This document shows, one piece after another, positions 23,819 to 29,898 of a stretch of DNA of 64,000 bases; position 1 is the stretch's first letter; the number at the start of each line of letters is the position of its first letter. Made by a program: the position numbers and the translations under genes. A model generated the notes under the pieces. That model searched no databases. It was not told the DNA's origin and saw only the letters and a program-made list of their open reading frames with translations. The stretch is from an uncultured beta proteobacterium (GTDB lineage Bacteria > Pseudomonadota > Gammaproteobacteria > Burkholderiales > SG8-41), in the NCBI GenBank assembly GCA_903889565.1, contig CAISYC010000005.1:142921-206920 (forward strand), given 5' to 3'.

Positions 23819-24784
23819 ATGCGGAACTGGACCTGTCTGGCCGCCTGCGGCCTCATGCTGATCCCGGTCGCAGCGACGGCACAGGAGAAATTCCCGGCGC
23901 GTCCGTTGCGCATCCTGGTCGGCTTCGGCCCCGGCAGCGGCACCGATATACTGGCGCGCGAAGTCGCGCTCAAGATGACCGACCACTGGGGCCAGGGCGT
24001 GGTGGTGGATAACCGGCCCGGCGCCGCGGCGGTGATCGCCTCCGAAATGCTGACGCGCGCAACACCCGACGGTCATACCCTGGCAATCGTTTCGCTGGGT
24101 CATGCGTTCAACGCAAGCTACCTGCCGAAGCTGCCCTACGACACACTGAAGGATTTCGCCGGCATCTCGACGGTGGCCGATATTCCGAACGTGCTGGTGG
24201 TAGCGCCCGCGCTCAAGGTGAAGACGATGCGCGAGCTGATCGATCTCGCCAAAAGCCGGCCGGCGCAGTTCAATTTTTCCTCGGCCGGCATCGGCAGCGC
24301 GGCGCACATCAACGGCGAGCTGTTCAATCAGGCCGCCGGCGTCAAGGTGCTGCACGTGCCGTACAAAAGCATGCCCGAGGCGCTGACCAACACGATCGGC
24401 GGCAATGTGCAGTTCGTATTCGCATCGGTCAGCGCGGCGGTCGCGCTGATCAAATCGGACAAGCTCGTCGCGCTCGCGGTCAGCACCAAAACGCGCGTGC
24501 CGGCGCTGCCCGAGGTGCCGCCGATGGCGGAAGCGGGCCTGCCCGGCTTCGACTTCACCGCGTGGTACGGCTTTCTCGCACCGGCGCAAACGCCGGCGCC
24601 GGTCAAAAACATGCTCGCGACGGAAATCGCGCGCATCGTCGCCCTGCCGGACACGAAGGAGCGATTGCTCGCGCTGGGCGCGTCGCCGCGCCCTGGCACG
24701 CCCGCCGAATTCGACGCCGTCATCCGTCAGGATGTGGCGCGCTTTGCCGCGCTGATCAAGGCAACCGGCATCAAGGCTGAATGA
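23819..24784 (+). CDS. Bug/TctC-type solute-binding protein
   Basis: EKFPARPLRILVGFGPGSGTDILAREVALKMTDHWGQGVVVDNRPGAAAVIASEML. Confidence 0.93.
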   Translation: MRNWTCLAACGLMLIPVAATAQEKFPARPLRILVGFGPGSGTDILAREVALKMTDHWGQGVVVDNRPGAAAVIASEMLTRATPDGHTLAIVSLGHAFNASYLPKLPYDTLKDFAGISTVADIPNVLVVAPALKVKTMRELIDLAKSRPAQFNFSSAGIGSAAHINGELFNQAAGVKVLHVPYKSMPEALTNTIGGNVQFVFASVSAAVALIKSDKLVALAVSTKTRVPALPEVPPMAEAGLPGFDFTAWYGFLAPAQTPAPVKNMLATEIARIVALPDTKERLLALGASPRPGTPAEFDAVIRQDVARFAALIKATGIKAE

Positions 24785-26305
24785 TCAGGCCTGCAGCAGC
24801 GGGCGCAACAGCCTCAGGTTGTTGACGCGCTCGATGTTCCACACCGCCGCGATCAATTCGGCCGCGCGTTTTTTACCGAGCACCGGCGCGCACAGGCCGA
24901 GGCATTTCTCGCCGACCTCTTCGCGCGTCATCGGGTTCTGCGCCATGCCGCGCACTTCGAGCACGCGGTGGCGCAGTTCACGGCCGTCGCGCAACCGGAT
25001 TTCCATGATCGCCTGCCGCACCGGCCGCACGCGATCCATTTCATCGTCGCCGTAGAGTTCGACCCGGCGCCGCAATTCGAGGACCTTCGGATCCTGCATG
25101 CGCGCCATGTCGTTGGCCGAACTCAGCGTAACGGTACCGTCGAGCAGCATCACCGCCAGCAGATGCTGCAGCGAGATATTCGGCATGGTGCGGTTGTTGA
25201 CGGTGTCCGCCCCCTGATGCGACAGGCGCACGACGATTTTTTCGATATCGGCGGCCTTCAGATTGTGCGTCTTCATCAAATAGGACATCGCATCGAGCGG
25301 CGCCTGGATCGGGCCGCCGACCGACCAGCGCTTGATGTTGGTTTTGCCGACCTCGAACAGCTCGCCGAGTCCGCGCGCGAGTATCTCCGGATCGGTTTGC
25401 GCAATGCCATAGGCGGCGAAAAAATTCTGGTCGCCGGCAAACATGTCCTCGACGTTGGTCCAACCCAACTGCACCATGGTCGCGGCAGCGATGCCATTGC
25501 GGCCCGGCATGCCGCCGTACAGAAAGGCCTTGCCGACGTGCTCGCGGTCCTGCGGAAAATTGGACACACCCGAAGCCTGCTGCGCCGCGAACGACAACAG
25601 GTGGCGCACCTGATCGAAATTGAATTTGAGGAGCGACCCGGCCGCCGCCGCCGCGCCGAAGGTGCAACCGAAGCCGTGCGTATCGCGTCCGGCCGCGCTG
25701 AATTTATCGCCGCCCATCGCCAGCGACATTCTGACGCTGATGTCGTAACCCAGCGCAACGGCGCGCAGCAGCGCGATGCCACCGGCTTTCTCACGCTCGG
25801 CCATGGCCAGCGCCGCCGGCACCACGCCGGCGCCCGGATGCAGCACTGCGAGCGCGTGCGTGTCGTCGGTTTCATCCGCATGCGCGAGCATGCCGCCGGT
25901 CAGCGCGGCATTACCGGCATTGGTGATGAGGCGCGTGCCCGGCACGCAGGCCTCGGCGGTGCCGCCCAGCGTCTTCACATAAGCCATCGCGCGTGCGCCG
26001 GGCAGCAGGCGCGTGCCCGACACCATCGCCGCCAGCGTGTCGAGCAGATGATGCTTGGTGGCCTCGGTAACCGCATCCGGCAATGGCGTAGTCGCGGCCC
26101 CTGCAACATAGGTCGCCACCGTACGCATCAACGGTGAAATCACAACGGGTTTATCCGGGTCCGCGCCTTCGCCCGCGACGGCAATGGGATGCGCGGCTTT
26201 GGCCGGCTGCGCCTCCACGTCAAACCCCGCGGTGGCCATCACTGCGCCGGCAACTCCGCCTTGCAAAAACCGGCGCCTGTCTGCGCTGAATTGCGACTCA
26301 CTCAT
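24785..26305 (-). CDS. MmgE/PrpD family protein with N-terminal Tat-like signal
   Basis: PrpD-type body (HHLLDTLAAMVSGTRLLPGARAMAYVK...MLAHADETDDTHALAVLHPGAGVVPAALAMAE); N-terminus MSESQFSADRRRFLQGGVAGAVMATAGFDVEAQPAKA. Confidence 0.87.
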   Translation of the reverse strand: MSESQFSADRRRFLQGGVAGAVMATAGFDVEAQPAKAAHPIAVAGEGADPDKPVVISPLMRTVATYVAGAATTPLPDAVTEATKHHLLDTLAAMVSGTRLLPGARAMAYVKTLGGTAEACVPGTRLITNAGNAALTGGMLAHADETDDTHALAVLHPGAGVVPAALAMAEREKAGGIALLRAVALGYDISVRMSLAMGGDKFSAAGRDTHGFGCTFGAAAAAGSLLKFNFDQVRHLLSFAAQQASGVSNFPQDREHVGKAFLYGGMPGRNGIAAATMVQLGWTNVEDMFAGDQNFFAAYGIAQTDPEILARGLGELFEVGKTNIKRWSVGGPIQAPLDAMSYLMKTHNLKAADIEKIVVRLSHQGADTVNNRTMPNISLQHLLAVMLLDGTVTLSSANDMARMQDPKVLELRRRVELYGDDEMDRVRPVRQAIMEIRLRDGRELRHRVLEVRGMAQNPMTREEVGEKCLGLCAPVLGKKRAAELIAAVWNIERVNNLRLLRPLLQA

Positions 26306-26471: not shown

Positions 26472-27017
26472 ATGAATCGCACGATTAAACTGGTCACGCC
26501 CGATGCGCCACCACCGAAGCCTGCGGCGGCGCCCGAGGTCACGCGTCGCAAACTCGACCCGACAGGCATCCGTTTGGGCGTGCTCGACAACAGCAAGGGC
26601 AACGCCGATCACCTGTTGCGAATGATCGTCGACGGCGTGCGCGCCGAGATTCCCGTCAAGTCGGTGGTGTCGCTGCGCAAACCGCACGTCACCTTTCCGG
26701 CAACGAGGGAGGTGCTGGACCAGTTGGAGGCGGAAGCCGACGTGGTCATCAGCGCGATGGCCGATTGAGGGGCCTGCACGTCGTGGAGTGTCCACGACAT
26801 GACCCAGATGCACAAACGCGGCGTGCTCGCCGCAGTGATCTGCTCCGACCCGTTCCGCACGCTTGGCACGACGCAGGCGCGCGTGCTTGGCGTGCCGGCA
26901 CTCCCGCTGGTGATGATCGCGCATCCGCTGGGCGGCCTGTCGATTGAACAGGTCGAGGGCCGCGCGCTGGTGGCAATTCCGCAGGTGATCAAGTTGATCA
27001 AGGACAATCTGTCGTGA
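26472..27017 (+). CDS. Probable UGSC-family selenoprotein; TGA at 26766-26768 read as selenocysteine
   Basis: Two ORFs (26472-26768 and the segment to 27017) are in one frame and separated only by TGA: ...LEAEADVVISAMAD-U-GACTSWSVHDMTQMHKRGVLAAVICSDPFRTLGTTQARVLGVPALPLVMIAHPLGGLSIEQVEGRALVAIPQVIKLIKDNLS*. 182 codons including stop; hairpin immediately after the TGA. Confidence 0.85.
26777..26801 (+). promoter_or_regulatory. Putative bacterial SECIS hairpin
   Basis: GTCGTGGA(26780-26787)-GTG-TCCACGAC(26791-26798): perfect 8-bp stem, apical loop about 20 nt after the UGA. Confidence 0.75.
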
Positions 27018-28129
27018 GCAACCTTGACGATCTGCTCAAAAACGACGGTGCCAGCATCGACGCCGATGACGATTTCGAGGCGATCAACGCACTGTATCTC
27101 GAACGCGGCTGGAGCGACGGCCTGCCGATCGTGCCGCCGACCACGGCACGCGTCGAGAAGATGCTGGCCTACTGCGACCGCCCGTGGAACGAGCCAATCG
27201 CAAAAATTCCGCCGCGCTGGGGCGAGGCGACGCCGCTGCGGCTGGCCGCCAATGCAGTGATGGCCGGCTGCAAGCCCGAATACTTCCCGCTCTACCTGCT
27301 TGCCATCGAAGCGATGTGCGAGGAACAATTCAATCTCTACGGCATTCAGGCAACCACCCATATGTGCGCGCCGCTGGTGATCGTCAACGGCCCGGTCGTG
27401 CAGGAGCTCGGCATCAACGGCGGCCACAACGCCTTCGGCCCCGGCACGCACAGCAATGCGACCATCGGGCGTGCGATCCGTCTGGCGCTCGTCAACATCG
27501 GCGGCGCGATTCCGAAAACCGGCGACATGTCCACCTTCGGCTCGCCGGCGAAATACAGCTATCTTGTCGCCGAAAACGAGGCCGAGAGCCCGTGGGAGCC
27601 GCTGCACGTCGAACGCGGCTTTCCCGCGGAGGCGAGTACCGTCACGGTGGTCGGCGCCGAATGCCCGCACAACGTCAACGATCACGAAAGTCTCAACGCC
27701 GAGGGCATCCTGACCACGATCGCCGGCACCATGATGGATGCAGGCTCCAACGATCCCTGCTACGAAGCACAACCGGTCGCGGTGCTCGGACCCGAGCATG
27801 CCAAAACCATCGCGCAGGACGGCTACTCCAAAATGGACGTCAAGAAATTTCTGCAGGCGCACGGCCAGCTGCCGCTCGGCAAATTCTCGAAGGAGAACAT
27901 CGAACGCCGCCTGCGCGTGAAAATCGCCGACCGGCTGGCCAATGCGCCGCTCGACGCGCTGGTGCCGATGGTGCAACGCGCCGAAGACCTGATCGTGATT
28001 GTCATCGGCGGCGCCGGCAAGCACTCCGCCTATATCCATACCTTCGGCGCCACGCAATCAGTGACGCGCGCGCTCAAAACAAAAGACGGCCGGCTCGCGA
28101 AATCGGTACAGGATTTCAGGCAAAATTAG
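27014..28129 (+). CDS. Conserved protein of unknown function, translationally coupled to the selenoprotein gene
   Basis: GTG start overlaps the upstream TGA stop (GTGA). MSNLDDLLKNDGASIDADDDFEAINALYLERGWSDGLPIVPPTTARVEKML...; long coherent ORF. Family name not recalled with certainty. Confidence 0.85.
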   Translation: MSNLDDLLKNDGASIDADDDFEAINALYLERGWSDGLPIVPPTTARVEKMLAYCDRPWNEPIAKIPPRWGEATPLRLAANAVMAGCKPEYFPLYLLAIEAMCEEQFNLYGIQATTHMCAPLVIVNGPVVQELGINGGHNAFGPGTHSNATIGRAIRLALVNIGGAIPKTGDMSTFGSPAKYSYLVAENEAESPWEPLHVERGFPAEASTVTVVGAECPHNVNDHESLNAEGILTTIAGTMMDAGSNDPCYEAQPVAVLGPEHAKTIAQDGYSKMDVKKFLQAHGQLPLGKFSKENIERRLRVKIADRLANAPLDALVPMVQRAEDLIVIVIGGAGKHSAYIHTFGATQSVTRALKTKDGRLAKSVQDFRQN

Positions 28130-28174: not shown

Positions 28175-28600
28175 ATGAAGATCAAACGCATCGAACACGT
28201 CGGCGTCGTCGTCAAGGATGTCGAAAAGAGCCGCGCATTGTGGGAAGGCTGTTTCGGCATCAAGTTGGACAGCGTGGAAACCAATCCGACCAAACCGGTG
28301 AAACTGGCAATTTATCCGGTCGGCGAATCGATGGTCGAACTGATCGCCGGCACCACGCCCGACAGCAAACATCAGAAGATGGTCGCCGAAGGCAAAGGCG
28401 GCATCAACCATCTGTGCTTCGAAGTCGAGAACATCGACGAGGCGCTGGCCGAACTGAAATTGAAAGGCATTCCGCTGCTGGACGAGGTGCCGCGCCACGG
28501 CCACGCCGGCTGCCGCATCGCCTTCATCGATCCGTCGGCGACGGAAAACTGCCTGATCGAACTCGCAGAACTGCCGAAGGGACACGCGCCCGCGCACTAG
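28175..28600 (+). CDS. VOC/glyoxalase-family protein, methylmalonyl-CoA epimerase-like
   Basis: MKIKRIEHVGVVVKDVEKSRALWEGCFGIKL...GGINHLCFEVENIDEALAELKLKGIPLLDE. Confidence 0.85.
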   Translation: MKIKRIEHVGVVVKDVEKSRALWEGCFGIKLDSVETNPTKPVKLAIYPVGESMVELIAGTTPDSKHQKMVAEGKGGINHLCFEVENIDEALAELKLKGIPLLDEVPRHGHAGCRIAFIDPSATENCLIELAELPKGHAPAH

Positions 28601-28698: not shown

Positions 28699-29898
28699 AT
28701 GACCCGCCCGCTCGACAACGTCACCATTATCGATCTGACCCACGCCCTCGCCGGCCCCTATTGTTCGACCATGCTGGCCGACTACGGCGCCAATGTGATC
28801 AAACTCGAACCGCCGGGCGCGGGCGACCTCGCGCGCGCATGGGGCTCGCCGGTGCCGGGCCCGGATTATTCGTACTTCGTCACGATTCATCGCAACAAGC
28901 GCAGCATCGTCGTCGATCTGAAAAAGCCGGAAGGCAAGGCACTCTTCTTCAAGCTGATCGAGAAAGCCGATGTGGTGCTGGAAAACTTCCGTGTCGGTGC
29001 GTTGAACCGTCTCGGCCTCGGCTATGAAGAAGCGAAGAAGCGCAACCGCGGCATCATCTATTGCTCGGTATCCGGCTTCGGTCAGGACGGCCCCTACAAG
29101 GATCGCGCCGCGCTCGACCTGATTCTGCAGGCGGAGTCCGGCATGATCAGCTGCACCGGCGAAGCCGGCGGTCGCGGCGTGCGCTGCGGCGTGTCGATCG
29201 CCGACCTCGCCGCCGGCATGAATGCCGCCTACGGCGTGATGCTGGCACTTCGCATGAAAGAAAAAACCGGCGAAGGCCAGCATATCGACGTCTCGATGAT
29301 GGAAGGCCAGATTTCGCTGTTGTGCACCACCATCGGCAACTATTACGCCAATGGCGAGCTGCCTAAACCGCAGGGCAATGCCTATCCGGTGGTTGTGCCT
29401 TACCAGACCTTTCAAACGAAGACGCGCGACCTCGCGCTCGCCATCGCCGGCCAAAAGCTTTGGAAGATTTTCTGCCCGGTGATCGGCGCGCCCGAACTCA
29501 CCGACGATCCGCTCTATGCGACCGGCCCGCTGCGCATGAAAAACCGCGAATCGCTGGTGCCGAAGCTGCAGGCCATCTTCATGACCCGATCGTACGAGGA
29601 ATGGGAACAACTGCTGCTCGCCAACAACGTGCCGGTCGGCGCCATCAACAACATCGAGCAGGTGATGGAGCACCCGCAGATCAAGGCGCGCGGCGTCATG
29701 ATCGAAACCGCGCATCCGAAAGCCGGCAAGGTCAAACAGGTGCGCTCGCCGCTGCGGCTGCCCGCGATGCCGCCGATGCCGGACACGCCGGCGCCGCTGC
29801 ACGGCCAGCACAGCTCGGAAATCCTGCGTGAGGTTTTGAAGCTCGACGACGACGCAATTGCCGCGCTTAAAAAAGCCGGCGTTGTCGGCGGCGACTAG
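28699..29898 (+). CDS. CaiB/BaiF family CoA-transferase
   Basis: MTRPLDNVTIIDLTHALAGPYCSTMLADYGANVIKLEPPGAGDLARAWG...; ORF-track start at 27184 is an artefactual extension. Confidence 0.93.
   Translation: MTRPLDNVTIIDLTHALAGPYCSTMLADYGANVIKLEPPGAGDLARAWGSPVPGPDYSYFVTIHRNKRSIVVDLKKPEGKALFFKLIEKADVVLENFRVGALNRLGLGYEEAKKRNRGIIYCSVSGFGQDGPYKDRAALDLILQAESGMISCTGEAGGRGVRCGVSIADLAAGMNAAYGVMLALRMKEKTGEGQHIDVSMMEGQISLLCTTIGNYYANGELPKPQGNAYPVVVPYQTFQTKTRDLALAIAGQKLWKIFCPVIGAPELTDDPLYATGPLRMKNRESLVPKLQAIFMTRSYEEWEQLLLANNVPVGAINNIEQVMEHPQIKARGVMIETAHPKAGKVKQVRSPLRLPAMPPMPDTPAPLHGQHSSEILREVLKLDDDAIAALKKAGVVGGD

Follow-up and report, generated by a model that had tools for sequence, protein, structure and literature searches.

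The UGSC gene and its neighbours

The window, a stretch of 64,000 nucleotides from an uncultured beta proteobacterium, carries a putative selenoprotein gene of the UGSC family on its forward strand at 26472-27017. The gene forms a single frame of 181 codons from an ATG at 26472 to the terminal stop TGA at 27015-27017, and its sole interruption is a TGA at codon 99 (26766-26768), which would place selenocysteine (Sec) at residue 99 of a 181-aa protein, within the motif D-U-G-A-C. The sequence-only reading of this DNA had described two open reading frames in one frame with only this TGA between them and, upon read-through, a coherent 181-aa protein of the UGSC family. Indeed, coordinates and sequence were as claimed, and the read-through protein (181 aa and a stop) matched the Pfam profile UGSC (PF24696) over residues 18-176, spanning the TGA, with an E-value of 9.4e-43 and 146.7 bits (cut-off 25), and the NCBIfam profile UGSC (NF041046) with 127.8 bits (cut-off 125). 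Both scores lie above the curated cut-offs for membership, and the match far exceeds chance.

The gene belongs to an established family, UGSC (Zhang and Gladyshev 2008, PMC2398784), with which it shares the full-length profile match, the U-G-x-C site and a bSECIS-like hairpin; fusion to a second domain had been reported for the family as early as 2008. The requirement for a U-x-x-C motif with Sec or Cys in first place was likewise met, with UGAC in the window gene and TGA or Cys in homologues. The gene differs from the motif that gave the family its name by Ala for Ser at the third position. This substitution, which had been put forward as a variant worth noting, is present but common, as five of the 21 TGA-bearing copies in the same genome read UGAC.

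The stop codon of the UGSC gene is overlapped by the GTG start of a 371-aa partner protein on the same strand (27014-28129), which is fused to UGSC in other paralogues. Downstream on the forward strand lie a VOC/glyoxalase-family gene (28175-28600), whose best NCBIfam model, methylmalonyl-CoA epimerase, scored below cut-off and which is kept in three close orthologous loci, and a CoA-transferase family III (CaiB/BaiF) gene (28699-29898) conserved in close orthologues. Upstream are a gene for a TctC/Bug solute-binding protein (23819-24784, forward strand) and, between it and UGSC, an MmgE/PrpD-family gene on the reverse strand (24785-26302), divergent from the UGSC gene. The latter is conserved in few orthologues, and whether it belongs to the unit is uncertain.

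UGSC genes that bear the TGA are cut short or divided by gene callers, a consequence that matters for annotation. On a plasmid of Acidovorax sp. T1 such a gene is annotated only as a 96-codon hypothetical piece, and on a Paracoccus ferrooxidans plasmid as two hypothetical fragments (Acidovorax/Paracoccus loci L182 and L188). The Paracoccus plasmid also carries selB approximately 4.5 kb downstream of UGSC.

Conservation of the in-frame TGA and the selenocysteine machinery

The TGA was present at the aligned codon in all 79 related public-genome loci read across the site (L029-L107), and their frames were free of TAA and TAG; one locus alone among the 79 (L067) has an additional TGA near its 3′ end. 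A number of the betaproteobacterial UGSC loci (L029, L031, L037, L038 and others) stem from metagenome-assembled records that bear the names Bordetella parapertussis or Chitinophaga pinensis, apparently in error. Compared with the four closest relatives, dN/dS (the ratio of computed dN and dS) was 0.13-0.16 for the part of the gene that precedes the TGA and 0.04-0.10 for the part that follows, the opposite of what would be expected of a genuine stop. The sequence downstream of the TGA is under strong purifying selection.

A search for homologues including Cys forms, which had been proposed as a check, identified Cys exactly at the Sec position in distant homologues from two proteobacterial genomes (G201 and G333) and in plasmid-borne homologues from three haloarchaea, Arthrobacter, Embleya, Roseovarius and two Variovorax. 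A high-scoring copy in a further genome (L176 in G021) also has Cys at this position, and its closest counterpart in the window genome has TGA.

The genome that contains the window (G000; 5.04 Mb, 99.7% complete, 3.9% contamination) encodes the complete Sec machinery, all four components of which had been named for a check. The tRNA-Sec gene (selC) scored 75.5 bits and was confirmed by ARAGORN with the anticodon TCA, selB and selA lie close to it on the same contig, and selD (L026 / L128, G000:C64:1542-2465) is present and itself has one in-frame TGA, so that it is probably a selenoprotein as well. Beyond this genome, a tRNA-Sec of at least 71 bits was found in 20 of 20 sampled genomes with a TGA-bearing UGSC gene, whereas in the Cys-only genome G201 and in two genomes without UGSC the top tRNA-Sec score did not exceed 51.5 bits, the level of other tRNAs.

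A bSECIS-like hairpin downstream of the TGA

Folding of the transcript predicted a bSECIS-like hairpin at 26780-26798 on the forward strand, with the stem GUCGUGGA / UCCACGAC and the apical loop GUG, which spans 14-32 nt past the start of the UGA and thus begins 14 nt after its U. A stem-loop at the expected place just downstream of the UGA, as a bacterial selenoprotein gene would require, is therefore present. The hairpin of the window gene gave p = 0.011 against synonymous shuffles. Under synonymous codon shuffling of the 21 paralogues, offsets from -120 to +120 were scanned; the mean z was -2.0 at +12, and all the others gave values between -0.8 and +0.9. The combined Stouffer value over the paralogue hairpins was -9.2, a figure that overstates significance because the paralogues are not independent.

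Hairpins of at least six pairs soon after the UGA occur in 20 of the 21 TGA-bearing copies of the genome, the exception being the copy on contig C65, which is without a clear hairpin; in two copies the hairpin lies about 6 nt further downstream. The stems diverge across paralogues with the pairing kept, for example CCAUCAGC/GCUGAUGG, GCCCGC/GCGGGC and CCGGCCUC/GAGGCCGG. Among distant homologues the mean z of the hairpin was -1.92 for those with Sec (n = 5) versus -0.57 for those with Cys (n = 12), some of the latter retaining part of the stem, which the encoded peptide TSWSVHD favours. The hairpin is selected beyond coding need. No relevant Rfam family was found at the hairpin.

These results bear on two readings in which the TGA would not encode Sec. 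In a nonsense-mutated pseudogene, the TGA would be a genuine stop and the downstream part would be decaying. The sole point for this is that standard gene calling would end the gene at the TGA, and it can hardly stand against selection that is stronger after the codon than before it, a TGA shared by 79 of 79 related loci and by 21 paralogues of one genome, Cys homologues, and a frame that continues without other stops in a genome with Sec machinery, whose tRNA-Sec moreover co-occurs with the TGA-bearing gene. The pseudogene reading was rejected. General read-through, or insertion of another amino acid such as Trp after stop-codon reassignment, found no support at all and was set aside as virtually untenable: UGA also serves as the terminator of the window UGSC gene, the residue that replaces TGA in homologues is Cys and not Trp or Gly, the hairpin lies at SECIS distance, and TGA-bearing UGSC co-occurs with tRNA-Sec. 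The sequence-only reading had listed, as observations that would favour a pseudogene, the absence of selA, selB or selC, homologues that align only up to the TGA, and homologues with a residue other than Sec or Cys and a disrupted downstream sequence; none of these applies, and its selenoprotein reading is supported. The apparent stop codon at 26766-26768 (codon 99) almost certainly encodes selenocysteine. This is as secure as sequence alone permits, and Sec insertion itself remains inferred.

Expansion of UGSC in the genome and its relatives

The sequence-only reading lacked two points: its genome holds 21 such genes, and the gene at 27014-28129 makes up the other half of a two-part unit. G000 contains 22 UGSC loci on 14 contigs, 21 of which are interrupted by a single in-frame TGA, placed at the motif (UGSC in 12, UGAC in five, and UGGC, UGTC, UGNC and UGTS in one each). 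The 22nd reads D-M-G-I-C; it is of the same kind as a sister group with Met at the Sec site (D-M-G) and fused to the partner domain (L127, G000:C5:87234-87752; L192; L193), which in Sporomusa and Vibrio plasmids adjoins aconitase X and DUF126 genes. With a median pairwise identity of 25% and a maximum of 68%, the copies of this genome are old, as judged from their sequences.

UGSC was found in 36 of 36 genomes of the same family (the window genome and 35 relatives), with 2 to 58 copies. A first count in the 35 sampled relatives gave 2 to 48 each, and a deeper count in one of them (G003) gave 58 matches, 51 with one TGA and no other stop. In other families of the order UGSC occurred in three of 24 genomes (1, 19 and 6 copies), and in the rest of the phylum in four of 397, with one or two matches each, apparently a single gene in two pieces in one of the four; outside its own lineage, then, few genomes of the phylum carry UGSC. 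Since the genomes are largely metagenome-assembled, the counts are possibly inflated by strain mixing and split genes. A survey of more than 5,200 genomes reported 33 UGSC proteins in 26 organisms (PMC5029168), against which 21 TGA-bearing genes here and 51 in G003 are unusual copy numbers. The idea that G003 with its 51 copies exceeds every known selenoproteome was dropped, as larger totals, 57 and 63 selenoprotein genes in other bacteria, have been published (PMC13188914). The total here is therefore no record, and the unusual feature is the number of selenoproteins from one family.

The partner protein

UGSC is nearly always accompanied by one partner family. The partner was found near or fused to UGSC at all loci of the window genome, beside or fused to it at 64 of the 79 related loci (within the stretch of DNA examined per locus) and at five distant proteobacterial loci, and in 13 of 13 plasmid records with a UGSC match; in phage records no match to the partner was found. 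Judged from this arrangement, UGSC and the partner at 27014-28129 very probably form a functional unit. Fusion of UGSC to a domain termed 'Unknown_1' was already reported in 2008 (PMC2398784). This may be the same domain as the partner. One tandem cluster (L111:5826-8984) comprises two UGSC units, one fused and one separate, two partner domains and one TctC gene, and one of its UGSC proteins reads UGTS, without the second Cys. At another locus, two UGSC-partner units flank the gene of a 713-aa protein (L110:7787-9928) that matched neither Pfam nor NCBIfam.

Searches of the partner against Pfam and NCBIfam at permissive thresholds revealed no family, and six partner paralogues matched these collections only via their UGSC part or below threshold. 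The predicted structure of the partner (mean pLDDT 86) gave only weak fold matches in the PDB (TM approximately 0.27). A fumarase-like fold (class I fumarase, E 5.6e-5) was considered and not adopted, given the global TM of approximately 0.27 and the absence of a conserved set of three Cys. No active site was identified in the partner, and PDB sequence searches with the UGSC and partner alignments returned nothing credible. Comparison of the partner with GrdE, PrdA, GrdB, PrdB, GrdD and PrdD profiles indicated no relation (E 0.3-0.4 for GrdE and PrdA).

Gene neighbourhood

In the window the MmgE/PrpD gene separates TctC from UGSC. At three orthologous loci (L030, L031 and L032) a gene 75-81% identical to the window TctC immediately precedes UGSC and is read in the same direction, and at 18 of 20 loci of the window genome a TctC gene directly adjoins the UGSC-partner unit, as counted from a simple codon-usage gene caller. 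Pfam identified as TctC all 20 proteins tested (the 18 adjacent, the one in the window and one in an orthologous locus). The number of TctC/Bug genes in the 5-Mb genome lies between 150 and 445; using the upper figure and assuming random gene placement, the binomial chance of 18 adjacencies in 20 is approximately 3e-12. With TctC genes so abundant, a general tendency of catabolic genes to cluster could account for part of the adjacency.

Thioredoxin reductase genes (trxB) neighbour a minority of UGSC loci. Arthrobacter has the gene order trxB-trxA-partner-UGSC, trxB lies beside UGSC in Roseovarius and Variovorax SRS16, and TrxB-like proteins are encoded by UGSC in V. boronicumulans and at one locus of the window genome (L121). 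CoA-transferase genes recur near UGSC, and CoA ester lyase, HMG-CoA lyase and isocitrate-lyase-type genes also neighbour it in relatives. The VOC and CoA-transferase genes downstream in the window give a weak hint of a product that enters CoA-ester metabolism. Genes annotated as phosphosulfolactate synthase occur near UGSC in Natrinema zhouii and Arthrobacter (L181, L185), a possible hint of organosulfur substrates.

Predicted fold and probable relationship to GrdB and PrdB

An hhalign comparison of UGSC with authentic GrdB/GrdF/GrdH/PrdB gave a probability of 95.8 and an E-value of 7e-9. The alignment covered 71 columns, in which the Sec residues coincide and the I-P-H-P motifs are in register. 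In controls, the minimum E-value of 60 column shuffles was 0.042, and six unrelated profile comparisons gave 0.024 or worse. The comparisons used retrieved sequences; a GrdB segment served only as a search query. Across the phylum, PF07355 had only weak C-terminal matches, in five Pseudomonadota genomes (L129-L133, proteins of approximately 310-325 codons without an in-frame stop), and authentic GrdB and PrdB were therefore taken from plasmid records.

On this profile evidence the C-terminal, Sec-bearing half of UGSC is likely to share common descent with the Sec domain of GrdB/GrdF/GrdH (glycine, sarcosine and betaine reductase) and PrdB (D-proline reductase), an inference in which we have considerable confidence. 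The shared features are U-G-[T/S/A]-C, the helix that follows, a G-I-P strand and the I-P-H-P-L-G motif. Both groups are paired with a second subunit, and both have paralogues within one genome, which in the reductases are substrate-specific (PMC10838667). In contrast to GrdB, UGSC lacks the N-terminal half, and the window protein does not belong to PF07355, matching only UGSC at E-values up to 10; nor was a match to GRDB (PF07355) found in the window genome. The UGSC partner, unlike GrdE and PrdA, is not detectably a pyruvoyl-type proprotein. The search of the window genome for GrdE (PF09338) gave no match but was made without a positive control and is therefore not evidence of its absence.

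The structural model of UGSC (mean pLDDT 88, 57-sequence alignment) has a parallel fold in which strands and helices alternate strictly, and Sec caps the N-terminus of the helix that comes after strand three. The PDB structures it matches are flavodoxin-like (TM approximately 0.45). The model, a prediction and not a solved structure, does not have a thioredoxin fold; UGSC is thus modelled as flavodoxin-like, contrary to the Trx-like fold suggested in 2008 (PMC2398784).

Proposed mechanism

The proposed mechanism is shown here in outline. UGA codon 99 would be recoded by SelB, tRNA-Sec and the hairpin just downstream. UGSC would then supply a selenolate, and the partner would supply substrate binding or activation. 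A small carboxylate, bound by the partner or jointly with it, would have its polarised C-X bond attacked by the selenolate, and thioredoxin would reset the mixed selenium-sulfur bond that Sec then forms with the second Cys of the U-x-x-C motif. Paralogous units would have diverged for different substrates, many of which would be delivered via tripartite tricarboxylate transporters by the neighbouring TctC proteins.

Selenolate attack and the thioredoxin reset are assumed by analogy with glycine and proline reductases, given the inferred kinship of UGSC to the Sec-bearing halves of GrdB and PrdB. A precedent for the chemistry is the GrdB-like FarB of bacteria that cleave the C-F bond of fluoroacetate (PMC10838667). 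FarB/FarE of Cloacibacillus, which acts on monofluoroacetate, likewise consists of a GrdB-like Sec protein and a second subunit, the latter without the pyruvoyl-forming cysteines, and nucleophilic attack of Sec on the C-X bond has been proposed (PMC10838667). It differs from UGSC in belonging to anaerobic Synergistota, in the GrdB-like size of the protein and in an MFS-type antiporter in place of TctC, and its sequence relationship to UGSC is only through GrdB. Several substrate-specific GrdB copies in one genome provide a precedent for duplication (PMC10838667). No biochemical result for any UGSC protein was found in the literature. Further points against a reductase mechanism are the paralogue (UGTS) without the second Cys, the Met at the Sec site of the sister group, a partner without detectable relation to GrdE or PrdA, and trxB in only a minority of loci. 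Reductive C-X cleavage by UGSC, with X and the substrate unidentified, rests on the analogy and is held only tentatively, at slightly less than even; one substrate per paralogue is inferred only, and could go either way.

Two other functions were weighed, both unlikely. The protein could be a selenoprotein and yet have a thioredoxin-like fold and serve in general thiol-disulfide exchange or as an antioxidant, without a substrate-specific catabolic role. The U-x-x-C motif, the trxB/trxA neighbours in some relatives and the placement of UGSC with Trx-like proteins in the literature (PMC2398784, PMC13188914) speak for this, whereas the parallel beta-alpha model with its flavodoxin-like matches, the obligate partner, and 2 to 58 divergent copies per genome with TctC neighbours favour substrate diversity over housekeeping redox. 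Alternatively, the UGSC-partner unit could be a lyase, hydratase or isomerase in which Sec or Cys acts as an acid-base group or metal ligand and not as a redox nucleophile. For such an enzyme there are the faint resemblance of the partner fold to class I fumarase, the lyase and CoA-transferase genes near UGSC in relatives, and the Met-containing sister group beside aconitase X; homology of the Sec half to the GrdB/PrdB reductases and the trxB/trxA association argue against it, as does a partner without three conserved Cys for an Fe-S cluster. The explanation preferred as a whole, that UGSC and its partner form a thioredoxin-reset selenoenzyme that reduces carboxylates, with paralogues for different substrates, is favoured by a modest margin of belief only.

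Significance for the UGSC family

UGSC proteins are among the commonest selenoprotein families in aquatic metagenomes, and their function is unknown (PMC2398784, PMC9402790, PMC13188914). To our knowledge, the literature describes neither the expansion of UGSC across a lineage nor its constant partner, and neither the TctC neighbours nor the profile link to GrdB/PrdB. The 21 selenoprotein genes with their partners and TctC neighbours suggest a diversified set of selenium enzymes that degrade small organic acids. It is conceivable, though we would not yet call it probable, that this Burkholderiales family made UGSC and its partner into a multi-substrate system of 2 to 58 units per genome, many beside a TctC gene of their own, and so took reductive chemistry derived from GrdB/PrdB outside the anaerobic amino-acid fermenters. 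The GrdB/PrdB link, the partner, and the trxB/trxA and TctC neighbours together offer a concrete, testable reaction type for a family long without an assigned function. If the mechanism is true, each unit would be a candidate selenoenzyme with a candidate substrate-binding protein encoded next door.
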